Shown here: piece by piece, positions 1 through 28,339 of the stretch
Numbering within the stretch: the first letter of the stretch is position 1
How the letters are laid out: every line of letters starts with the position of its first letter
Assembly: GCA_000320605.2 (NCBI GenBank)
Contig: KB445804.1
Span: forward strand, 198,591 to 262,590
Length of the DNA: 64,000 nucleotides
DNA from: Gelatoporia subvermispora B
Taxonomy: Eukaryota > Basidiomycota > Agaricomycetes > Polyporales > Gelatoporiaceae
Reading direction: 5' to 3'
Notes under the pieces: model-generated
Told to the model about the DNA's origin: nothing
Seen by the model: only the letters and a program-made list of their open reading frames with translations
The model's database searches: none
Position numbers and translations under genes: made by a program

Positions 1-483
1 TGAGGTGCAGTGATAATAGACTTCTGTATTCAACACTCTATAGGTACTAATACATGCCAGAGAACGTAGGAACCAATTAGTGGGCCCGAGAGCGGCGGCG
101 GCGGGGCCGGCGGGAGGAAGGGCGGGAGATAGCCGCCGGCGGGAGGGCGGGAGATAAGGGGCGGGAGATAGCCGCCGCCGGCAAGGCACGGCATGGCCAC
201 GCGAGCGCAGGGCGGGGGCGGGGGCGGGGCGGCGCGCCTGGGCCTGCGATGAGCCGATGCACGTGCTCGGGAATACCCGCGGCGGGAGGCGGCAACGGCG
301 GCAACGGCGGCAACGGCGGCAACGGTGAGCGGGCTAAGCGCAGGGGGGAGGAGAGCGCAAAGGCCAGCGGGGAGCCTGGGGTTGCTCCTGGAATCGCTAT
401 TTGGCGCTACAAGCCTAGCTTAGGCTCAGCGTCCGATACCGCCGATGAGGCTAATTAGGCTGAGATCCGGTGTCACCCGGGTG
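1..483 (+). mobile_element. End of a second copy of the KDZ-type element, running off the left edge
   Basis: Positions 1-79 are the exact reverse complement of the stretch just inside the left terminal repeat of the large element (15411-15489). Positions 80-483 are one complete terminal-repeat unit. The unit ends with the palindrome CACCCGGGTG at 474-483, after which host sequence begins. This therefore reads as the end of another element of the same family in mirror orientation, its body lying left of the window. If it made a 7-bp target duplication, the base run after it (484-490, TCCAGGC) should also precede its far end. Confidence 0.8.
80..483 (+). repeat. GC-rich terminal repeat unit, copy A (404 bp)
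   Basis: Starts GTGGGCCCGAGAG and ends GTGTCACCCGGGTG. Inside are a block of GGGCGGGAGATA-type repeats (118-170), a run of G tracts separated by single C (210-229), and four tandem copies of a GGCAACGGC-type 9-mer (about 290-334). By eye it is identical to copies B and C. Open frames through it are repeat artefacts, not genes. Confidence 0.9.
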
Positions 484-1155
484 TCCAGGCGAGTTGGTGC
501 GATTCCCACGACGACTAGTAGTGGGTCTTGTGGTACTTATTGTCCGCCAAAAAGACTACAATCGCGTCATCATTCGCAACTCATACAAAGTCTGCTTTTC
601 TGAGATTGGAATTATCACGTGATAATCTCACGGTAAGAGATTTGCTTCAAACTTACATCCCACGGTTCCTTCCATTTCAGGCAAGATGCCATTCTCGTGG
701 TTCGTCGCAGGTCCTTGACAAGAAACAGATAACAAGCTCCAAGAAAGCTAAACACATGGGAGACCATAATATGGGTGTCAGCCAGCCAAGAAAATTGTCT
801 ATGGCTTTTCCTCTGCTTCTCAATCTCAGCGACCTATGACCAGAAGGATAAGGAGAATGTCAAGGTCTGCCGGATGAGGTCTTCTTTCTGCCTTTGTCTT
901 CCAGTCTGAATGTAACAGTAGTAGTGAAATAGTCATGACATTTGTCATGCGTATATGTCGAGACACGAAATGTCGTCGTAGTGGGCCCTGCCGCGCTTGC
1001 GCGGCGTTACTGTGATTTGCAAGGAGAGGTGGTTTGCAGTCGCGAAATGTGTCTTTCCACGTGATGCTGCCACGTGTCTCTGTTAGCGCCGGTACCGCGG
1101 CGGTACTCAGACAATGAGGCCGCGCTTGTAGGAGTTGTTTGATACTTCTCGGAAC
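484..1155. other. Spacer between transposon end and YVC1-like gene; no firm gene
   Basis: No complete gene is recognised. A short open stretch at about 515-625 and another at 680-838 (plus strand) look weakly coding and are separated by a plausible intron. They could be the 3' remnant of a gene cut by the element whose end lies at 483. The 1080-1155 part is the 5' flank of the channel gene. Confidence 0.4.
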
Positions 1156-13287: not shown

Positions 13288-13975
13288 TCAGATTTCGTCG
13301 ATGTCGACTTCGTCCTCGTCCCCGAACTCGAACGTGCACTCGCCATCTTCCTCGCCGAACGTCTCGGTCTCGTTGATCTTGGCGTTCTCGGGGAGCTCGC
13401 CGTATGCCTTCACTGTAGGTGCAGAGATGCGTCGAGGATGTAGAACATCAGTCAGCAACGACAGACACAGCAGGAATGAATAGTAAGACGCACGACTACG
13501 AGCCTCATCCGCAGTGTACTTGACAATAACGTCCGCCTTGTCGTCCTGGAATTCACGGAGGGAGAGCAGAATGATGTCTCCCTGGTTAATCCAGACCTAT
13601 TGCATTATTCTATAAGCGCCCCCCCGCCACATCCGCAGAGATCGAACGTGCTTACCTTCTTGCGCATCTTGCCACGGATGTGTGCAAGACGCTTCTCGCC
13701 GTCGAAGCATTGCGCCTCGAGACGGCCATTACCAAGCATCTTGGTAACCTGGGCATACTCCTGGCCGTCCTCGCGGAAGACCAGCTCGCGCTTGTCGTCA
13801 TCGTTCTCGTTCTTTCCACGTCTCCGGTTCTTCCCTCCCTGTAGGCGTTTGCGGATGTTGAGCGATCTGTCAGCAAAGATAGGTGGGCAGAGGCCTGACC
13901 TTTCCCTTGTTCTGTGTATGGCATGATTATTAGCAGCTGTGAGCCTGCTGAAGGTCTGCGACGCACCTTAGGCAT
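13288..13975 (-). CDS. TIF11: Translation initiation factor eIF1A
   Basis: eIF1A binds the 40S A site and helps scanning and start-codon choice. The spliced protein is about 143 aa, the usual length. Exon 1 encodes only MPK. A 12-nt microexon adds NKGK, then comes [19 protein letters not shown], the OB-fold ([47 protein letters not shown]) and the acidic tail ending [10 protein letters not shown]. The stop is at 13288-13290. All conserved blocks are intact. The start at 13975 lies only 235 bp from the inserted transposon, whose far side faces the PP2A gene. Confidence 0.96.
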
Positions 13976-14203
13976 GATGAGTGGTCCTGAACGTTTCTCG
14001 AGGGTTCTCCCAAGCGATTTGTGACCTGCAGAGATTGACTAAGGGGACAAGAGCCTCGAGTGGTGGCGGGACGCAAGAGAACGCTGCAAGCAGTGCCGGG
14101 TCAGTCACCTCGAGGCGAGGCATGAAATCCATCTTTCCCACATCATGTCACGGTCGTTACCGTCACGTATATCCTAATGGGGCAGGTGGTGACACGCATG
14201 GAC

Positions 14204-14210
14204 GCGTCAC
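14204..14210. repeat. Left target-site duplication GCGTCAC
   Basis: This 7-bp word directly abuts the CACCCGGGTG terminus at 14211 and is repeated directly after the opposite terminus at 26844-26850. The eighth base differs. Confidence 0.8.
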
Positions 14211-14614
14211 CACCCGGGTGACACCGGATCTCAGCCTAATTAGCCTCATCGGCGGTATCGGACGCTGAGCCTAAGCTAGGCTTGTAGCGCCAAATAGCGA
14301 TTCCAGGAGCAACCCCAGGCTCCCCGCTGGCCTTTGCGCTCTCCTCCCCCCTGCGCTTAGCCCGCTCACCGTTGCCGCCGTTGCCGCCGTTGCCGCCGTT
14401 GCCGCCTCCCGCCGCGGGTATTCCCGAGCACGTGCATCGGCTCATCGCAGGCCCAGGCGCGCCGCCCCGCCCCCGCCCCCGCCCTGCGCTCGCGTGGCCA
14501 TGCCGTGCCTTGCCGGCGGCGGCTATCTCCCGCCCCTTATCTCCCGCCCTCCCGCCGGCGGCTATCTCCCGCCCTTCCTCCCGCCGGCCCCGCCGCCGCC
14601 GCTCTCGGGCCCAC
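14211..14614 (-). repeat. Terminal repeat unit, copy B (left end)
   Basis: Reverse-complement copy of the 404-bp unit, identical by eye to copy A. It forms the outer left end of the element and stops one base before the N run. Confidence 0.92.
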
Positions 14615-14615
14615 T

Positions 14616-15007
14616 NNNNNNNNNNNNNNNNNNNNNNNNNNNNNNNNNNNNNNNNNNNNNNNNNNNNNNNNNNNNNNNNNNNNNNNNNNNNNNNNNNNNN
14701 NNNNNNNNNNNNNNNNNNNNNNNNNNNNNNNNNNNNNNNNNNNNNNNNNNNNNNNNNNNNNNNNNNNNNNNNNNNNNNNNNNNNNNNNNNNNNNNNNNNN
14801 NNNNNNNNNNNNNNNNNNNNNNNNNNNNNNNNNNNNNNNNNNNNNNNNNNNNNNNNNNNNNNNNNNNNNNNNNNNNNNNNNNNNNNNNNNNNNNNNNNNN
14901 NNNNNNNNNNNNNNNNNNNNNNNNNNNNNNNNNNNNNNNNNNNNNNNNNNNNNNNNNNNNNNNNNNNNNNNNNNNNNNNNNNNNNNNNNNNNNNNNNNNN
15001 NNNNNNN
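14616..15007. other. Assembly gap (392 N)
   Basis: Unknown bases. The flanking contigs end and begin almost exactly at the boundaries of a terminal-repeat unit, which suggests the assembler broke on the repeat. Confidence 0.99.
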
Positions 15008-15410
15008 ACCCGGGTGACACCGGATCTCAGCCTAATTAGCCTCATCGGCGGTATCGGACGCTGAGCCTAAGCTAGGCTTGTAGCGCCAAATAGCGATTCC
15101 AGGAGCAACCCCAGGCTCCCCGCTGGCCTTTGCGCTCTCCTCCCCCCTGCGCTTAGCCCGCTCACCGTTGCCGCCGTTGCCGCCGTTGCCGCCGTTGCCG
15201 CCTCCCGCCGCGGGTATTCCCGAGCACGTGCATCGGCTCATCGCAGGCCCAGGCGCGCCGCCCCGCCCCCGCCCCCGCCCTGCGCTCGCGTGGCCATGCC
15301 GTGCCTTGCCGGCGGCGGCTATCTCCCGCCCCTTATCTCCCGCCCTCCCGCCGGCGGCTATCTCCCGCCCTTCCTCCCGCCGGCCCCGCCGCCGCCGCTC
15401 TCGGGCCCAC
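15008..15410 (-). repeat. Terminal repeat unit, copy C (left end, inner)
   Basis: Second reverse-complement copy, lacking only the first terminal base because the contig starts there. It matches copy B fully by eye and runs into the unique body at 15411. It is either a tandem unit or the same physical copy as B placed twice. Confidence 0.9.
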
Positions 15411-15743
15411 TAATTGGTTCCTACGTTCTCTGGCATGTATTAGTACCTATAGAGTGTTGAATACAGAAGTCTATTATCACTGCACCTCATGAAGAACTGT
15501 CTGGACCCGGCCGGTAAGGCCAATGCCGAGCGGATGGCACGTGGTCTTCCTGCGTCATCACAAGACCACGTGATTTGTGCCCTCCATCAACGCACTTGTG
15601 GCTGTAGTACTTTCCTGAGTGGCCTGAGCCCTCTAGTTTCTATCGCATCGCTTTCTATTCATTTGGCTTACACTGGCGCACACCTAGCCGACATTCCACA
15701 TGCAGCTACTAAGCAGATCGTATTCTCTGGCAGTACAGCACCT
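15411..15743. other. Left subterminal region of the element
   Basis: Positions 15411-15489 are repeated in reverse at 1-79. An inverted pair of CACGTGGTCTT follows at 15538-15572. No coding block is recognised before the 3' end of the first cargo gene. Confidence 0.6.
15538..15572. promoter_or_regulatory. Inverted repeat of CACGTGGTCTT
   Basis: CACGTGGTCTT at 15538-15548 and its exact complement AAGACCACGTG at 15562-15572, separated by 13 bases. Each arm contains an E-box, CACGTG. It could form a hairpin or serve as paired binding sites near the element end. Confidence 0.6.
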
Positions 15744-17710
15744 CTATATCCTCCCCCACGCGATCGCCCCCAACGTCTGATCGTCCATCCCGGCCGTCCA
15801 GTCGATTTCCAGTGGGTTGTACTGCCCGGACTCTGCACCAGGAAGATAGTATGAGACATTCCCAGCTCCCGAGAAAGCACCGGAGAGCGACGGGAACGAC
15901 AATAACGATTGGGCAACCTCGGCTCCGACTTCTCCAGGTTGCAGCATCGGCGGCATGGCCACGTCTTCTGCGATTCCGAAGGCATCCTGGTGCAGAGGAA
16001 CATCTGGTACGTTCTCGATTGGCGACAGGAGGCTATGGAGCAGACTGCCGATCGGGGGAGGCGCATCCGGCGCGGTAATCATAGGCGTTAGCATGAGTTG
16101 CGCCGCTGCAGGTGAGGCTCGCATGCTGTTGTCCAGAGCCATCGGCACGGGCAGCCCAGCTTCAATGCAGTCTGGGCCCATCAGATTGCTTTCGTTGACA
16201 GCTTGCATAGCCTGGCCTGTTGACGGCGAGACCTGCGGGTCTTCTGTGCCAGCCGTGCTTGTGTCATGACGATCGATGTCACTGCCCATGGAATGCGAAG
16301 CCGGCACGATAACTGGTGACGAAGGCTGGGGTGTCGTACACCTGCTTTCGTCATCAGATGTCTGAACCTCTTCAGCACTTTGCGGGTGGCGACCGCCCTT
16401 CTTTCCGGTTCCTTTGCCCCTCTTTCGCGGGGCCGTGATCAGCGCCTCCTTCCGCGCATTCCATTCGTCCTCGCTCAGATCCACCCAGTGCAAAGAGGGC
16501 GATGGTCCCTCCAATGCGGCGAGCAGGCGCTCGAGCGGGGCGCATGACTTGAATCCGCCCGGGTTGCATACACCATCCTCCTCGGTCCAGCCTTCGAGCT
16601 TTACACCGTACCTGGTGACAAGGTCCTCGTAAGCCGCCCACTTCATTTCCTTCGGCAACTTGTCCCGGGGGAAGCCCTTGCGGATGCAGATATCACCTAT
16701 TATTGGTCAGTATGTTCACATCGTATAAATAGTTCTCGTCACGAAGCACTCACGGAAGCGTTCCACGATGGTGGTCCGTACCTTCCCCTTCAGGGTGTTG
16801 AAGCGTCTACCACCCATCTCCCTCCGAACGCCTATCAACATTCTGTCGATCAGCATCACAATGTATTTGACGACGCTCAAACTCACCGTCCAGCCCAGCA
16901 ACGATATAACCATCAATACGAGCCGCAAAGACCTCAACAGTCACCTTGAAGACCTGGCTACATGCATCTGCGGCCTTCGCAGATGCATACGTCTCAATCT
17001 GCCAGTTGTCGGTCGCATCCCCGTGAAGGATCAGCAACATGAACTCAGCGCCCGTGCGGTTATGCAGTGCTTCCAACTGTATTCAGGTGAGTTGTCATTG
17101 AAATCTCGCCACGGTAATCTTGACTCACCTCCGGGTGAATACTTCTATGTACCCTACTCACGTCAATTGCAGCACTCTTCGTCGGCACATTCTTAGCGGT
17201 GGCGCGCTTGTCCCGCGTGTGCTGCAGTTGGGAGATCAACCGTCCTCGCTCCTCGTCGTCCATGTCATCCCACTCGTCAGCCGCAGTCTCTTGCACAAGG
17301 TTAGTCAGTGTTTGCCGTCCCTCAGAAGCAACACCTGTAAGTCCTCATCAGCCAGCTCTTATTTCTGTTCTGACAGAACCTTCTACCTACCATCCGCTTT
17401 GTTACGCTCCGACCTGTCGTGTAGCATCGCGTTATAGCTATTTACGGCACGATGACTCGACAGGAGCGGTCCGCTGCTGTATAATTGCATGGCCACCCAC
17501 TTCCGGGGTCTAGAAGTAGCTCGTAAGCATCCATGTAACATAGAATGTATACAAAAAATGCATAACGTACTGCTTATACTTCTCGGCAATCCGTGTGATA
17601 GAAGCATTGTATGCGACACGCTCTGCCATGAGTTCATCCCACAACTCGTCACTCCGCTGAGCATTGGCTGCCCGCTGCTCTTTAGTGCGCTGGGGCCTCA
17701 CGACTGGCAT
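15744..17710 (-). CDS. Cargo gene 1: KDZ-element-associated protein of unknown function
   Basis: Exon 1 begins MPVVRPQRTKEQRAANAQRS at 17710. Later exons give YNAMLHDRSERNKADG, ETAADEWDDMDDEERGRLIS, NVPTKSAAIDVSR, LEALHNRTGAEFMLLILHGD, KVTVEVFAARIDGYIVAGLD, RRFNTLKGKVRTTIVERF and a long last exon (about 16690 down to 15744) opening GDICIRKGFPRDK, then YGVKLEGWTEEDGVCNPGG and HWVDLSEDEW. The order resembles a basidiomycete family that I recall as recurring beside KDZ transposases, with the same alternation of a HNRTGAE-like block and a GVKLEGW-like block; this is from memory, not a search. The last ~240 residues are low-complexity and rich in Pro, Ser and Met. No catalytic motif is seen. Exon borders between 17200 and 17530 are unsure. 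Confidence 0.65.
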
Positions 17711-17842
17711 GGTGGGTAAAAACTGTGAGGTTTGGAATGTGATGTTGTAGCAGAAAAGATTGTTTTGTGCTGACCGTCACTTAATTGCAGGTCCTTGCAT
17801 CTGACAGAGCGATCACGTGAGGATTATTCTGACATTGACGAC

Positions 17843-19252
17843 CTACAGACTATAGAATGTTGTACTACTTGTAGCTGAGGCCACACTACGTCTACTCGTG
17901 TTGCTCACGGACGACTCCTCCCTGACAGTCAAGGATGTTTCTGAGAGTTGCTCAGATGCTACGCTCCGCATGATATCCCGGCTCTCTGCAGAAAGCTCCG
18001 CCTCCACCAAAACCCGTAGGCGTTGTGCATCCCGAGCCTTCAATCCGACCGCAGTAAACGCAGGAACCCAGTCATCTATCCAATAGTCTAACGCGGCCTC
18101 AATGCGGGCACATTGGTGCGTCGTCAAGTTAAGGGTACGCAGAAACTCTTTGACAACACTACCAAATGGTAGGCTGTCTACATCTCCCCGGCAATAATAC
18201 TCTGCTTCGTACGATGGAGGCAGGTCTTGTCGCCATATATTGATTGGTTCGTCTGCAGAACGGAGTGGCTGGCCCGTCGCAGGCACGCTGAGACTCAAGT
18301 CCCTCGCAAGCCGCGCCAGGGCTGTGTCATCGTTGTCTACAAGTGGATGATCTTGTCAGTCGACTTTGCGACACGCTATGACGAGAGTCTTACCTCGGTG
18401 TGGACGTTCCTGGACACCTCTGGTAGCACGCCGTGGTTCTGGGGGACTTCTGGCCGGGGGCAGACGCCCACGTTTTGTCCTCTCACGCCGGACGTTTGCA
18501 GGGGGCGGCGAGGGGGGGGGTGCAGGGGGCAGCGAACGGCAAGAGGTCGAGAGCGGTGACGTCCGAGATGGTACGGTGCAAGGCGATGCATCTCCATGCT
18601 CCGATAATGAGGGGGACAGGGACGCGGCCAGGCGCACCGGGTTGTTAAGCACACGCCCAGTCTCCGGGTCCAGAGCATGTCCCCGTGGCGTGATTTGGTC
18701 CAGCTTCCGATGGAACGCCAAGATGTGGGGAACCGCAAGCTCATTCTGAATAATAGACCGTATCTTTGACACGGCCTGCATCCAGCTCGAATTCTGCTGA
18801 AATTGTCGAGACAGGATGAAGTCGACCTGAACAGATGACGGTTCCAGCGGTACAGATGTGTCCCACTCGGGTCGGACAGCAATTCCTATGAAGAACGCAT
18901 CTGTCAGACGAGCGACACCAACAGCCTAGACACGTCAGAGAGCATCACCAACTTGGCGTCAACAAAAATCAAAATCGTGAAGTCCACGGCGCTCACGTAC
19001 CGCATCCTCAATATCATTCAGAGCCTCGTGGTAGGCCATCTTCCTGTCGTCATTGGACAAACAGAAATGATCGTGCAGCGTGAAGTTAGAGTGAATTTGC
19101 TCGTTGCCGTCCTTCCGAACATGCAGCCGCTCTTTGAATCGTTGCTGTTCGATTACTGAGAGGGGGGGCTGTGGATTCCGGGACTGGGTAAATTTCCTGA
19201 GTGCAGGTGGACTGTATCGAGCAGGGACAGCGCGTGATGATCGTGGGGCCAT
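17843..19252 (-). CDS. Cargo gene 2: uncharacterised protein
   Basis: Starts MAPRSSRAVPARYSPPALRK at 19252. Exon 1 has FKERLHVRKDGNEQIHSNFT and ends at a GTACGT donor after DIEDA. The next exons give VGVARLTDAFFIGIAVRPEW, VQVDFILSRQFQQNSSWMQA and ELAVPHILAFHRKLDQITPR, then a Pro/Ser/Arg-rich linker (about 18420-18600). The last exon carries INIWRQDLPPSYEAEYYCRG, a helical block (LRTLNLTTHQCARIEAALDY), KARDAQRLRVLVEAELSAES and a Ser/Thr-rich tail, with the stop at 17843-17845. No known domain was recognised. It has the same orientation as cargo genes 1 and 3 and lies wholly inside the element. Coding quality is good across all exons. Confidence 0.65.
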
Positions 19253-19778
19253 GTTTTAAGAGGAAAGTATAACAACAGAATGAGACTTCGCAGCCAAGCA
19301 TTGCCAGCTGCAACGCCGCTCCCATGTTGTGTGGCGTCCTGAAGCTTAGTGAAATATGTTCTCGTAGTGTTGTAGTATGATGGCTGCTTTGTGCGCCTTC
19401 GACCCCGTCACCGTACATTCTGTGGTTCAGGTTCGAGTCTCCGCTGTTGCACTTTTTTGCATCAGGTTCCTGAAAGGCCTTCAGCGGCACATCATGTGAA
19501 ATTAAGCCTGGGGTCGATTTTATACTCATGGAAACATGAAATTTATGCTGGGAACCGTGCTATCTTTATTACTACTATACGCCCGCTGTGCACACTTTTC
19601 TCGCAGTACATCCCTCTACTGTGACCACGATCTCAGAAGCCAAACTGTTGTCGGAACGTGCGCAAGTTGACACTGTAAAGGGTATGCATTCATCAACTTT
19701 CCATTCACGTTCGTGCAAGATCCGCGAGCACTCACCACCTTCCTTGCGAGATGAGGGTGTTGTCCATGGCAGCCTGAT

Positions 19779-20400
19779 TCAAGGCAGGCAGTCCTGACAA
19801 TTGCGGTACTTAGCGTCCAGTAAGTTCATACACACGTCAATCGTGGCAGGCGCACCTTGAGCACTGAGCTCGATAAACTGTTGACACACAGCCACCATTC
19901 GCCGGCGTGCATGAAGTACACACGGATGGGCATGGGAAACCACACCTCTTCGTGCAATGACGAGCAGACCGTCTAATTCACGGTGGACGTACCGCATAAC
20001 CCCCTCCATCCACTCATCTCCCAATGCCCTGCCGACCACTAGATCGTAGAATTCATCCCATAGTGCCTCCTCGTTCACTTGCATACTCCTTGTCCATTCC
20101 GGGTCCTCGGTAGGGTACTTTCGGACAATGCTAGTATGATAAACTCTAGTGACAAGTAGATAAAGTGGTCAGAATAGGCTTGACTGAGATAGATGGAACT
20201 CACATGCGTTCGCCATCGAGTTCCTGCTGCCGGCGCAATTGCAACTGCGCCTTGTCCTTGCGAGACAACTTGCGTCGACTTGAGCGATGTATGGAGTTGT
20301 ACCGCCGTTGATATTCTCTGCGGGCATCTACATGTCTACGACATAGTGAGTACGCGATGTGGACATCGAAGAGGACGTACTTCTCGTAAGAAGGACGCAT
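19779..20400 (-). CDS. Cargo gene 3: small uncharacterised protein
   Basis: Two exons. Exon 1 starts MRPSYEKYVLFDVHIAYSLC and is basic towards its end (RKLSRKDKAQLQLRRQQEL), closing at a GTGAGT donor near 20203. After an intron, exon 2 reads VYHTSIVRKYPTEDPEWTRS, EEALWDEFYDLVVGRALGDE, GVMRYVHRELDGLLVIARRG and ends NCQDCLP with the stop at 19779-19781. The product is helical and probably soluble; function is unknown. It lies in the minus-strand run of cargo genes. Confidence 0.55.
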
Positions 20401-21115
20401 CTGAGGTGGCCTGAGTTAAGCACAAGTATATCAAGGTGTGGAACAAAGTTGGGGAGCCAGCGGGAAGTTGTGGCTGCGAAAGTGCCGGTTGTGGACGATG
20501 GCAGAAGGTAGGTTGGGTCAGCCACTGCGTACTGGATGGCGTTCAGCACGTAAATGTGTCTCAGTCAACACATCCGCAACCGCCAAATGCGCTCCACATG
20601 TCGGTTACTTTATTTTTAAACTATGCATAAGGGGCTAATCCTCCGATCACTACTGCATCGGACTCAAGAGTATCTCAATGTTATTTATTGAAATATCACG
20701 AAGACAATATGTTTGACGCAACGCCACAGCGGCTGAGACGCTCATCCAGGAGAGACATGGTGGACCAAAACGCCGCGTGCCAACGACACAATGAGGCGTG
20801 CAAAGTTGCGTATAACAAGCACATACATCCAGACAATACACTGTGCTATGCTAGTGTCAGGATTCGTAAGGGGAGAGATATGGCATGCAAAAAAAAAGCA
20901 GGCGAAGGATCGAACCCGCAATTTCGTAAATGAACAATCGACAAAATACCGCGCAATATCACACCAGTACCACAAGACCACCAGCACTTGCTAAACTTCA
21001 GAGCGGCAAGACACACGACCCATGTGTAGGGTAAGTAAATGTCCGGCACAACTTTGAAGACATAAGTCGCCCGTTCGACATACCTGTTGCGTGAACTTCG
21101 TGTACCTGGGGCATA
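20401..21115. promoter_or_regulatory. Divergent spacer between cargo genes 3 and 4
   Basis: Likely holds both promoters. A plus-strand open frame at 20709-20933 (starting MFDATPQRLRRSS) is weakly coding-like and could be an upstream exon or a small gene, but nothing supports a function. A minus-strand B-box-like GGTTCGATCC followed by a T run (about 20888-20918) does not fold as a tRNA. Confidence 0.4.
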
Positions 21116-21881
21116 ATGTCAAACGGCCTTGCAGCGGTATCACTGCCGTGGATGCGTCGAGAACCCCGGGGACCTCCGTGGGTGCCCACAATCGTCAGAG
21201 TGTGCGTGAACTTGATTCAGTGGACTTGCAAAAGTTGATGAACCCACAGAGTAATCGAGGACTTTCGCATGTGTGCTGATGCGGAGTCTAACTTGTATGG
21301 CCCGACTCGGATACCACTAGAAGCAAGATTCCGGGACGCGGAGCAGTTGGCCTCCATGCACAAGTGGGCAAAGGTTCTCGAAAACCTGAAGGAGTGGAAG
21401 AGGGCAGGGGTAGAGAAATGGGATATTTTGGCCCACAGGAACGTACCTATGGCCGCCTTCCTGGTGGCGTATATCACCGGATGGAACGGTCGGTGGCTGA
21501 CGGTGGAGCCATTCTCACCCGAGGATAGAAAGGCCATGTGTGAGCGAGGGTTCTTTGTGGAAAGAGATGATGACGAGAGATGTAAGTCTTCGGTGTGTTC
21601 GTGTGGTACGACCTGCTGACACGGAGGCAGTCGTGTTGCCATGGGACCGCTGGTCAAAAGTGCATGACTACTCCGCGCAGTTAGACGAGCAACGCTGGGG
21701 AGAACGGGAGATTTACCGAGTCGTTGGCACAGACTACCTCCGAACGAACGCAGTCGTGGCGGTGGATCTGAGCTTGGTGCGAGGGTGGCGTGGGCACGAT
21801 GGATTCGTCCGCGAAGATGGGACCAGAATTGTAGTGCATACCGTCATGTTCCTGTGTCAAGGTACGCGGAATGTCGTGTAG
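21116..21881 (+). CDS. Cargo gene 4: uncharacterised protein
   Basis: ATG 21116 opens MSNGLAAVSLPWMRREPRGP. An intron at 21202-21249 joins to VIEDFRMCADAESNLYGPTR, then RFRDAEQLASMHKWAKVLEN, GVEKWDILAHRNVPMAAFLV and GWNGRWLTVEPFSPEDRKAM. A second intron (donor GTAAGT near 21582) leads to FVLPWDRWSKVHDYSAQLDE, EREIYRVVGTDYLRTNAVVA, VDLSLVRGWRGHDGFVREDG, with the stop at 21879-21881. No domain was recognised; Trp- and charge-rich segments suggest a folded protein. It is the only plus-strand gene in the element and ends 67 bp from the end of the transposase gene. Confidence 0.6.
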
Positions 21882-21948
21882 GCATGAGTTCATTCAATTC
21901 AAGCTCACGAACACAAATGAATTGCTACTTGGAGGTACACGTGTGGTC

Positions 21949-24900
21949 TTACCCAGCTACAGCAAAGTCTTCAAGGAGCTCTGTCAGCTTTACCATCGCT
22001 TCATCGTCGCTACCATCATCCTCGCCCACATCATCATCACACTCCGGGGTCCCAGTGCATTCAGCGACGTCATCGCGATATGTCTTGATGAGTTCCGCAA
22101 GACGCGGGTCTGCTGGTGTCCCAACGGTCCAAGAGCCGGAGAATCCGGGCAGGCGCGCGATGGCCTGGATACGCCGCAGATGCACAAAGTTGATCCGCGA
22201 GTACTTACGATATCGAACACGAAGCTCAGCTGCGAGCACTGGATCCGTCTCCAACGTTTGCTGGATGGCACTTTTGAATGCCGCGCGTTGCAATACAATG
22301 TGTGTATGCAAGCGAGGAATCTCGACATTCAGTCGTGTGATCTCGTCGTAAGCTCCCCGGATCTTCCAGTACTTGGCGGCGACCTCGCGGTTGTAAGGTA
22401 CAGTCCACGGCCTTTGAGTCACGTTGCCGGAGGTGTGCGAGTGTCGTAAGAGATCAAATTCAGAAATGAACGTGTAGTTCACGACGTCTTTCCAGTCAAG
22501 TGTCGGAGCCGGAGGTTGCATTTGCACGGCTAACGAGTTATATTTGCTGAGGGCCGATCGTATGGCCTTGCCTCGGGCTTTCAAGGCCTTCCAAATGGAA
22601 GTACGCATTTTATAACCTGGGGAGGTTGCTATTAGTAACAGGTATATTGAAAATTAAGACATGATAATACTCGCCCATCCCCGTCATGTTTGCTTTGGAC
22701 ATCTCAAGTAGACGTTGAATAACAAGTTGCTGTACCTTTTCTAGGGCTCTGTGGAAATCCCTATTGCGCATGAACTGAAGTATGTCTTGATACTTGGCAT
22801 CGTGCGGGCTCCATCGATGTTCGATGTCAAGCTTGGCCTCGAGATCGTTGACGGCTTCGATGGCAGCGTAGGCCGCTTCTTGGGCTGCGCGACGCGCCCG
22901 CTCCAGGCGACGAGTCATGCGGATGTCCTGCTGGGTGTCGACCGCGCGTCCAGCGGATGTAGACACGAATGCATCGCGAGCAGTGCCGAGTTTCTGTCTG
23001 GAAAAACCGTAAGGAAGATCTGTGTTACTAACGAAAAGAAACGTACTCTGCGCGTTCCCGGTCTATGAGAGCTTGGACATATGCGCACTCTAGGACTCGA
23101 TCTTCAGGCTCATCCTTGAGATTCTTGAGGAAGTCTCGTTCATCCTGAAGCCAGGATTCGATCGTGGAGTCGTCAATGCCGAGTGTGCTCTTGAGGTGGG
23201 CGACTTCAACAGAGTAGTTCTTGATAATGGTGAGGCATTGCCGATAATTGTTATACAGAAAACGGCCTGTCAATGATGGTGTCAGTATCTAGAGTCCGAC
23301 TCTTGTGGGAAGGTATGGACGCACTCAGCTCACTGTAGCGATCCTCATCCCACTGACTGAAATGAAGGTCGAGAAATTGGAGATAGTGGAACAGGGAGGC
23401 ATATCGTATGCACCGAGCGACGGTATTTGATGAGGAAAAGACGCGTTCCATGCCTTCGAGATCTTCTATGCCGTAGCCAAGAATATAGAGTGGGTGATTA
23501 TAGAGCTGGCACAGTCGATTGTGCGCATACCCGTGAAAAGCGCACACAACAAATTGCATGTTGTGTGCGCGAACCTTGGGCCCTACCTTCGCACTGTTGT
23601 TGGCTGTCTCGTTGAAGGCACAACCAATATCATAGCCGCAGCCACACTGATCGTGATGGACGTCCAGGATCCAGTCGACTATGGCAAGCGGATACTTAGC
23701 TCTACATGTTGTAAGTAACAGTCGCAAGGGACAAGGTGCATGGCTACTCACAGCTCGCCACTGCGGATCATCTCGCATGCCTTCTGGATAAGGCCGTGTC
23801 GACATGCGCACACAAATATGCCTGTTGTCTCATAGACGTCAAGAGCGCGCTTCTCGTGCTCAGCAGCGCTCGCCTTCCAGCGCTGTGTACAAGGTGTAGG
23901 TCGGGCCTGACCATCAGACGCATCTCCAGGGCCATCCTCAGATAGCCACGGGGCATCCTGGTCTTCCTCCTCGTCCTGTCGGAAGATTAGCTAAGCGGAG
24001 CACGTGATTCGAATGAAAGCACACCTCATCTACATCCTCAACCATAGGCTTGGGGGGTGAGCTTCTGTGTTTGACCTCGTCCTTGAACTGGTCGACGTGG
24101 TCGCGGGACAGGAAATAGTCACTTTTGAAGGTGCGCTCGTCCTCGGTGCCAGCTTTCGCGATGCGTTTGGCCGAGTTGTTCCCATCCATGGCTAACAGGC
24201 GAGCCGGATGAAGCTCGACTTCGCCTTCGAGCTGTGGGACAATGAGTCAGAAGATGTAAAACAACTTGAGCAAGAGCGGTAATCGGCGCGCCTTTAAGTT
24301 ACAGCACGGACAGGCGTTCTTAGCACGCCACTCAGGAGAGTCGTGGCCAAGGGCCTCGTCGACTGCCGTCTTGACCCGGCGCAGGATTGCTAGGTAGACA
24401 TCGAAGGCGATCGAGAACTGCTCTCGGAGAACGCTGGAGTATGTCACCTAAAGAGCAGATTATATACCATGATGAAACCTTTAGTAGAATGCACTGACAT
24501 CGTGAAGGTCGCAGAGAGCGCGAACCATGGGCTGTATGGACAGTTGAGCATGACGACGGCGGAGTCGATGATATAGCTCCAAGGTGTCCAGGCTGAGGGC
24601 AACCGACGGGACGACAGGGCTGCATCCTAACAAGCCCTGACGTATCAACGCCACGTTGGCGAGCTCGTTAGGGAGTTGAGGCACAGATAACTTGTCGTCT
24701 CGACCTGGGCAAGTGTAAGTCGAGATCAAACAGGAGGTTACATGTGGTACGTACGATGCGAGTATATGGCGGTGATATGGAATATAGTATGTTCTCCTAG
24801 GCCATCAGGGGGGAGGGTGTGGCCATGCTTCCACTGTAGGTATGCATTGACAAGATGGGGCATCTGCTCGTCCCAGTTGTGTTGTAAGGCGCGCAAGCGA

Positions 24901-25408
24901 TCACGGCGAGTCCGCACATCAATTCGAGAGTATCGCTTGGAGGTGCTGCAAGCAATGGAAGTGAGCTCGAGCGGCATAGGAAAAGGTGATGGACAAACCG
25001 ACGTAGATCGAGCATATGCTCGTACATGTCCTGGTACTCGCTTCCCTCGTGCGAAATGTCGGGCATGTCGTCCTGCGTATCCTCCCATTCCATATCGTCG
25101 TCCCACGGGGCTGTGTATCCGGGCGCAATGCCTTCATCTGGGGCGGCTCCATGTTCAACGACCAGCATGTTGGCTACGGCCCGGGTTGCCGCCGGCAATG
25201 CTAAGCAGAGATTCAATCATGAAAGTAGCATATAGTAGAAAGATAGCGGCGTACTCCGAAGATACTCGCGTCGAGACTCAAGCATGATCGACCGCTCCTT
25301 CCCCATGGCTGACCGTGACTTCGACACCGGACGAGGGAGGGTGGTAGTGCCAGTCGGGGTATAGATGAGATTGGTCTTGATGTTTCTTCTGCGTTTGGAT
25401 TTGGCCAT
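21949..25408 (-). CDS. KDZ (Kyakuja-Dileera-Zisupton) superfamily transposase
   Basis: About nine exons from ATG 25408 (MAKSKRRRNIKTNLIYTPTG). The N-terminal part has ALIRQGLLGCSPVVPSVALS and a Cys cluster (NACPCCNLK near 24300). The catalytic region has ELHPARLLAMDGNNSAKRIA (AMDGN block, an acidic active-site candidate), WILDVHHDQCGCGYDIGCAF, CAFHGYAHNRLCQLYNHPLY, GIEDLEGMERVFSSSNTVAR and DLHFSQWDEDRYSEL. The C-terminal coiled-coil part ends WKDVVNYTFISEFDLLRHSH and an acidic tail, with the stop at 21949-21951. These blocks are characteristic of fungal KDZ transposases. No premature stop or frameshift is required, so the enzyme may be functional. It lies next to the right terminal repeat. 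Confidence 0.88.
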
Positions 25409-25562
25409 GATAAATCCGGAGAGACAGTATGATTAGAAGAACGAGGAGAACTGCAAAAAGTAGCAGGAATACAGCAAAGGAATAGTACGGAGTACTTAGC
25501 GCCTGAACGCGTCGTGCCATAGGCACCTAGAAATTGCTCAGCCACCAGCGCGTTCACATGGG

Positions 25563-25587
25563 CACGTGGAACACGTGGAACACGTGG
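25563..25587. promoter_or_regulatory. Three CACGTGG motifs in 9-bp phase near the right end
   Basis: CACGTGG occurs at 25563, 25572 and 25581, about 155-180 bp upstream of the transposase start and about 110 bp inside the right terminal repeat. E-box clusters can bind bHLH factors; subterminal motif arrays can also bind transposases. Which applies here is not known. Confidence 0.55.
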
Positions 25588-25696
25588 CACGGGTACGGTG
25601 CCGTCCGAGTTGGTATTCATGCCGCGCTCAAGCGCAGCATATGAAAGGTATATTCTATATAGAACTTTGGATATGAGGCCGACGGCGGGCGCAGGG

Positions 25697-26096
25697 GTGG
25701 GCCTGAGAGCGGCGGCGGGGCCGGCGGGAGGAAGGGCGGGAGACAGCCGCCAGCGGGAGGGCGGGAGATAAGGGGCGGGAGATAGCCGCCGGCGGGAGGG
25801 CGGGAGATAAGGGGCGGGAGATAGCCGCCGCCGGCAAGGCACGGCATGGCCACGCGAGCGCAGGGCGGGGGCGGGGGCGGGGCGGCGCGCCTGGGCCTGC
25901 GATGAGCCGATGCACGTGCTCGGGAATACCCGCGGCGGGAGGCGGCAACGGCGGCAACGGCGGCAACGGCGGCAACGGTGAGCGGGCTAAGCGCAGGGGG
26001 GAGGAGAGCGCAAAGGCCAGCGGGGAGCCTGGGGTTGCTCCTGGAATCGCTATTTGGCGCTACAAGCCTAGCTTAGGCTCAGCGTCCGATACCGCC
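25697..26096 (+). repeat. Terminal repeat unit, copy D (right end)
   Basis: Same unit as A-C but diverged at its inner end: GTGGGCCTGAGAG instead of GTGGGCCCGAGAG, one fewer GGC at the start, an extra GGGCGGGAGATA-type unit and a few substitutions. It is cut at 26096 by the N run, just before the terminal ~40 bp. Confidence 0.9.
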
Positions 26097-26481
26097 NNNN
26101 NNNNNNNNNNNNNNNNNNNNNNNNNNNNNNNNNNNNNNNNNNNNNNNNNNNNNNNNNNNNNNNNNNNNNNNNNNNNNNNNNNNNNNNNNNNNNNNNNNNN
26201 NNNNNNNNNNNNNNNNNNNNNNNNNNNNNNNNNNNNNNNNNNNNNNNNNNNNNNNNNNNNNNNNNNNNNNNNNNNNNNNNNNNNNNNNNNNNNNNNNNNN
26301 NNNNNNNNNNNNNNNNNNNNNNNNNNNNNNNNNNNNNNNNNNNNNNNNNNNNNNNNNNNNNNNNNNNNNNNNNNNNNNNNNNNNNNNNNNNNNNNNNNNN
26401 NNNNNNNNNNNNNNNNNNNNNNNNNNNNNNNNNNNNNNNNNNNNNNNNNNNNNNNNNNNNNNNNNNNNNNNNNNNNNNNNN
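26097..26481. other. Assembly gap (385 N)
   Basis: Unknown bases inside the right terminal-repeat region. Confidence 0.99.
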
Positions 26482-26843
26482 CGGGAGATAGCCGCCGGCG
26501 GGAGGGCGGGAGGATAAGGGGCGGGAGATAGCCGCCGCCGGCAAGGCACGGCATGGCCACGCGAGCGCAGGGCGGGGGCGGGGGCGGGGCGGCGCGCCTG
26601 GGCCTGCGATGAGCCGATGCACGTGCTCGGGAATACCCGCGGCGGGAGGCGGCAACGGCGGCAACGGCGGCAACGGCGGCAACGGTGAGCGGGCTAAGCG
26701 CAGGGGGGAGGAGAGCGCAAAGGCCAGCGGGGAGCCTGGGGTTGCTCCTGGAATCGCTATTTGGCGCTACAAGCCTAGCTTAGGCTCAGCGTCCGATACC
26801 GCCGATGAGGCTAATTAGGCTGAGATCCGGTGTCACCCGGGTG
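26482..26843 (+). repeat. Terminal repeat unit, copy E (right outer end, 5' truncated by gap)
   Basis: Continues the same unit from its GGGCGGGAGATA region to the terminal CACCCGGGTG at 26834-26843. It has one extra G relative to D near 26512. It may be a second tandem unit or the same copy as D at the start of the next contig. Confidence 0.9.
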
Positions 26844-26850
26844 GCGTCAC
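26844..26850. repeat. Right target-site duplication GCGTCAC
   Basis: Direct repeat of 14204-14210, placed exactly after the terminal CACCCGGGTG. Confidence 0.8.
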
Positions 26851-26974
26851 GCTTGCTCCGCACACGACAGTAGCTGAGGTCGCCCGCGCAGGCCTGCTTA
26901 CTTACACTCGCGCACATCGCACCCTCCGCCCAACTTGTCCATTCCTTCATCGCTCGCACACCGACTTAACAGCC

Positions 26975-28339
<1,365 letters not shown>

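Follow-up and report, generated by a model that had tools for sequence, protein, structure and literature searches.

The divergent genes for eIF1A and the PP2A catalytic subunit of Gelatoporia (Ceriporiopsis) subvermispora B are separated by a long stretch of DNA bounded by inverted repeats, which raises the question of whether everything between these repeats moves as a single transposon and, if so, of what kind and size. The locus lies in a window (the whole stretch of DNA that was analysed, 64,000 nucleotides) belonging to scaffold C14 (1,084,147 bases), and genome-wide searches covered the assembly of 37.7 Mb. All gene models were computed or hand-spliced from the sequence. The evidence given below points very strongly to an intact KDZ DNA transposon of about 11.1 kb that has transposed recently and is probably autonomous; it would be a young KDZ element, complete and exactly bounded, with independent 7-bp footprints, in a sequenced white-rot fungus.

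Element boundaries and terminal repeats

The element is flanked on both sides by the heptamer GCGTCAC (window positions 14204-14210 and 26844-26850), an exact target-site duplication (TSD) that had already been proposed in a sequence-only reading of this DNA. As printed in the scaffold the element spans 14211-26843 and is bounded by terminal inverted repeats (TIRs): the tip CACCCGGGTGACACCGG begins at 14211, and the reverse complement of CACCCGGGTGACACCGG finishes at 26843. When random left-flank and right-flank positions were compared, identical 7-mers were obtained in 16 of 200,000 draws. The flanking 8-mers were unequal in both copies of the element, the second of which is described below, indicating a duplication of 7 bp rather than 8 bp.

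Each TIR is printed twice, on either side of a scaffold gap. On the left, a first printing on the plus strand (14211..14615), which opens with the tip, is interrupted by 392 N (14616..15007) and is followed by a second plus-strand printing (15008..15411) that equals 14212-14615 at 404 of 404 bases and is probably an assembly overlap. On the right, both printings lie on the minus strand; the first (25697..26096) carries an extra unit of ~39 bp, and the second (26482..26843), which includes the element tip, is separated from it by 385 N (26097..26481). Once the contig overlaps are merged, the two ends agree at every one of their first 364 bp and the TIRs measure about 404 bp (left) and about 440 bp (right), the right being longer because of the one extra ~39-bp unit. 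The G+C content of the left TIR is 72.6% compared with 53.1% for the element interior, and the observed/expected ratio of CpG in the TIR is 1.07, indicating no depletion. The long GC-rich inverted ends of the earlier reading are thus upheld, the doubling of the repeat at each end being a probable product of assembly. An Rfam scan of window positions 14000-27200 gave no match.

The KDZ transposase gene

A transposase gene of 11 exons is predicted on the minus strand at 21951..25408. The model is open over 975 amino acids, with no internal stops, and includes two GC-AG introns, one with a good donor (GCGAGT) and the other with a weak one (GCGCGC). The predicted product matches the KDZ domain PF18758 with an E value of 7.1e-77 over profile positions 2-217 of 217, while a match to PF18802 (CxC1; E 0.0016, 19 bits) lies under the Pfam cut-off of 26.9. 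The best database match was CERSUDRAFT_97846 of G. subvermispora B. The UniRef label of P0123, the database version of the gene studied here, opens ‘CxC1-like cysteine c’. In an alignment of 14 transposase relatives, P0123 among them, D310, D462 and E497/E500 (P0123 numbering) were invariant across all sequences, and we take these D, D and E positions to be catalytic. The element therefore exhibits the features of the KDZ superfamily, namely PF18758, a conserved D/D/E and defined termini with a TSD in both copies, and the earlier identification of a KDZ-type transposon, a PF18758 gene within paired TIRs and a 7-bp duplication, is borne out.

A mechanism consistent with this structure can be proposed. 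The transposase would recognise the 5’-CACC...GGTG-3’ tips together with the GC-rich end repeats of ~0.4 kb and would excise the whole unit, which would then be inserted at a 7-bp staggered cut that host repair fills in, yielding the 7-bp duplication. One copy would in this way have landed in the 359-bp upstream region common to eIF1A and the PP2A catalytic subunit. The element may still be active at present.

Insertion site

The start codon of eIF1A (PF01176; minus strand) is at 13975 and that of the PP2A catalytic subunit gene (plus strand) at 26975; with the element removed and one GCGTCAC retained, the two start codons would be 359 bp apart. The insertion divides the upstream region common to these divergent genes into window positions 13975-14203 and 26851-26975. 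The locus represents a natural experiment on an insertion of 11 kb into an upstream region common to two essential genes.

A second copy of the element

One further copy, element A, is visible in the assembly at C14:188743-199073, 13.7 kb from the element studied here and inverted relative to it. One end of element A occupies window positions 1..483 on the minus strand, and its interior gap stops where the window starts. Element A is flanked on both sides by TCCAGGC, abutting the tips; the right member of this pair is found at window positions 484..490 and its left partner outside the window. The right end of element A equals the left end of the studied element at 100% over 482 bp, and since its interior is a gap of 9,494 N the comparison is limited to the ends, 482 bp at most, and copies of the passenger genes may be hidden within it. 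The occurrence of another copy with the same ends and its own matching flanking 7-mers agrees with what the sequence-only reading had proposed to look for.

The assembly was searched for further ends. A 17-base tip occurred four times in 37.7 Mb, always in the two copies, and its reversed control did not occur. A 408-bp end query gave seven matches across the assembly; no solo end was found, since all seven fall within the two bounded copies. When one mismatch was allowed, a 13-bp tip gave 34 matches. Five of these were exact, each lying in one of the two copies, and the other 29 had a single mismatch; the reversed control gave 31, and tip-like sites elsewhere therefore carry no weight.

Seven of the one-mismatch tip matches read TCCCGGGTGACAC. 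The six of these sites that were extracted have in common the surroundings of another, dispersed repeat. Two copies of that repeat lie 0.7 kb apart on C11, and no connection with KDZ ends was seen.

Passenger genes

Four further genes are predicted between the TIRs. Three are on the minus strand: G4 (15744..17710; 6 exons, 561 amino acids), G3 (17843..19252; 3 exons, 425 amino acids) and G2 (19779..20400; 3 exons, 172 amino acids). The fourth, G5 (21116..21881; 3 exons, 214 amino acids), is on the plus strand and convergent with the transposase gene. For G5 a hand-spliced model was used in place of the predictor's plus-strand model, which ran on into the transposase antisense. A Pfam scan of all four products gave no family above the cut-off; G4 had one sub-threshold hit, at E 0.065.

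No other match to G3 or G4 was found in the readable part of the assembly, which excludes the gap in element A, at E 0.001. Among the scored candidates G4 had two relatives, both from Obba rivulosa, situated on contigs of 156,424 and 109,320 bases. The contigs of the KDZ relatives P0125 and P0001 have the same sizes, which suggests that the G4 relatives and these KDZ relatives lie on the same contigs. A structure model of a G4 relative had a mean pLDDT of 50.3, too poor for use, and a PDB sequence search with the first part of G4 yielded one insignificant match (E 0.92).

Relatives of G2 and G5 beside divergent KDZ transposases

The assembly contains at least 59 matches to PF18758, grouped into 35 places. 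Relatives of G2 were found at five other places in the assembly (30-57% identity) and relatives of G5 at four (31-44% identity). All five G2 relatives are situated 1.8-3.5 kb from a KDZ match and all four G5 relatives 8.0-10.5 kb from one, where nearness means distance to the KDZ place and not position relative to the ends of those elements. Each of the four G5 relatives has its KDZ place in common with a G2 relative, the places concerned being C8:552-561k, C8:742-751k, C6:974-985k, C21:560-570k and C16:566-568k, with G5 at four of the five. The gene order and strand of these relatives differ from those of the studied element. Among themselves, the five places have a similar KDZ-G2-G5 order.

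The fraction of the genome near a KDZ place is 0.8% within 4 kb and 2.1% within 11 kb. Agreement by chance would be expected at the order of 3e-11 for G2 (4 kb) and 2e-7 for G5 (11 kb), figures that serve as a rough guide only because the distances were picked post hoc and uniform placement was assumed. A tblastn search with the studied transposase at E 0.001 gave no match to the KDZ loci at these five places, and matched the loci at C6:1056k and C14:26.8k. G2 and G5 thus accompany clearly different KDZ transposases.

Of all features of the element, the passengers common to divergent KDZ lineages are of greatest interest. A tentative explanation, to which we attach rather less than even weight, is that G2 and G5 assist KDZ transposition as helper genes, having been retained by deeply diverged KDZ lineages or transferred from one to another. 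If so, KDZ elements would be multi-gene machines, not a transposase with random cargo, and related families of such machines would cut 7 or 8 bp. The recurrence of both genes beside divergent transposases makes a need for helper proteins testable.

Size and origin of the element

The printed element of 12,633 bp includes 777 N, as two gaps within the TIRs. Each gap has the same TIR on both sides, with complete agreement of the printings across the first and agreement at 321 of 322 bases, plus one 1-base gap, across the second; the real size is for this reason taken to be ~11.13 kb and not the 12.6 kb of the earlier reading. The assembler probably broke in the repeated ends and the overlap was printed twice, so that the true element, after merging of the TIR printings, would be 11,130 bp. 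A TIR truly doubled at each end, making an element of about 12.6 kb, would match the scaffold as printed and would accommodate the single-base difference between the right-end printings. We regard it as unlikely, as both doublings coincide exactly with N gaps, the first base of the inner contig is element base 2, and the printings on the left are identical throughout.

Transposition of a single unit was weighed against two further explanations of the locus. The four passengers might be host genes trapped by chance between two short TIR elements, and the want of any Pfam family over the cut-off or proven role in transposition among them, together with the failure to recognise relatives of G3 and G4 elsewhere in the assembly, is compatible with such a composite. 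The composite is nevertheless highly improbable, given the absence of solo ends (seven of seven end matches being in the two bounded copies), the proximity of every G2 and G5 relative found to another KDZ transposase, and the apparent sharing of contigs, judged from their sizes, by the G4 and KDZ relatives of O. rivulosa. The closeness of the two copies and their mutually inverted arrangement could alternatively be attributed to a segmental duplication or inversion in place of transposition. Their flanks differ, however, and the tips of each copy abut an exact 7-bp duplication of its own; chance or duplication is accordingly an unlikely source of two insertions that share neither flanks nor 7-mers, and an origin by duplication or inversion is the least credible of the explanations considered. 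Counting against the favoured explanation, a transposed KDZ element, are the unreadable interior of element A, the need of the transposase model for two GC-AG introns, one with a weak donor, and the apparent 8-bp duplication of the related C14:19918 element. Under this explanation the four passengers would belong to the moving unit. The same had been proposed in the sequence-only reading, and the position of these genes inside the TIRs and the occurrence of their relatives beside other KDZ transposases lend it support.

Comparison with published KDZ elements

KDZ1, KDZ2 and KDZ3 of Cryptococcus neoformans, which were caught jumping and encode a KDZ transposase with a CxC1 domain, are about 9-11 kb in size with TIRs of 241, 139 and 169 bp, respectively, and TSDs of 8 bp for KDZ1 and 4-8 bp for KDZ2 and KDZ3 (PMC12810828). 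The present element resembles them in its size of ~11 kb, long TIRs and KDZ transposase, and differs in its longer TIRs (about 404/440 bp), a TSD of 7 bp in both copies, a CxC1 match below the Pfam cut-off and four passengers.

Kyakuja-1_LB and Kyakuja-2_LB are described with 7-bp TSDs, 5’-CA...TG-3’ termini, no TIRs and a TET/JBP gene (PMC12730594). The 7-bp TSD, CA...TG ends and Agaricomycete KDZ transposase are common to the studied element, which in contrast to that description has long TIRs (about 404/440 bp); its scanned gene models gave no match to TET/JBP, a gene that Kyakuja has. Zisupton and the Dileera element Zisupton-1_PGr have 8-bp TSDs, and Zisupton has TIRs (PMC12730594). The studied element belongs with Zisupton to the KDZ transposase group and likewise combines TIRs with TSDs, its TSD being 7 bp as opposed to 8 bp. 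The sequence-only reading had placed 7 bp close to the 8 bp of Zisupton; a TSD of 7 bp had already been published for Kyakuja, one of the KDZ branches (PMC12730594). Since the element fits neither the Kyakuja description without TIRs nor the TSD length of 8 bp seen in Zisupton and Dileera, it was assigned to KDZ without a branch.

Among other hosts, Agaricomycete KDZ elements of Marasmius oreades have a TIR motif that was characterised according to the authors (PMC8290104), and a Pleurotus insert was reported not to adjoin a KDZ transposon (PMC7641404). Giant KDZ elements of the brown alga Ectocarpus exceed 10 kb, reach up to 30 kb and carry accessory genes; nested insertions are common among them and local hopping has been proposed (PMC12477816). 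The studied element is similar in exceeding 10 kb and carrying accessory genes, and dissimilar in that the giant elements have a brown algal host, sizes of up to 30 kb and nested insertions. A 7-bp TSD, long TIRs, a size of ~11 kb and accessory genes have thus each already been published for KDZ elements (PMC12730594, PMC12810828, PMC12477816). A literature search by title and abstract, with Repbase outside its scope, found no description of the element itself.

Other KDZ elements in the genome

Ends were sought at four other KDZ places (C14:26.8k, C8:861k, C1:113k and C6:1056k) and resolved at two. At C8:861k and C1:113k no spanning long TIR was found, nor any duplication above chance matches. 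The nearest relatives of the studied transposase exhibit 43% and 40% identity over their best stretches. The element of the 40% relative (C6:1053861-1062705; 8,845 bp) has 526-bp TIRs at 99% and, like the studied element, tips that read CACC...GGTG. It is flanked on both sides by TGCATGC, a 7-bp duplication that is weaker evidence because this 7-mer sits in a TGCATGCATGC run.

The 43% relative is accompanied by 321-bp end repeats that start with CACCTGG and lie in direct orientation at C14:19918-20238 and C14:30062-30382. A direct duplication was tested for at the ends of this element, with a negative result; its outer flanks, GGTCGCAA and TTGCGACC, are mutually reverse complement. These flanks appear to represent a duplication of 8 bp that an inversion has split, the inversion being suggested by the arrangement of repeats and flanks. 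An element with a 7-bp duplication and a related family nearby that apparently leaves 8 bp bear on the spacing of the cut among KDZ lineages.
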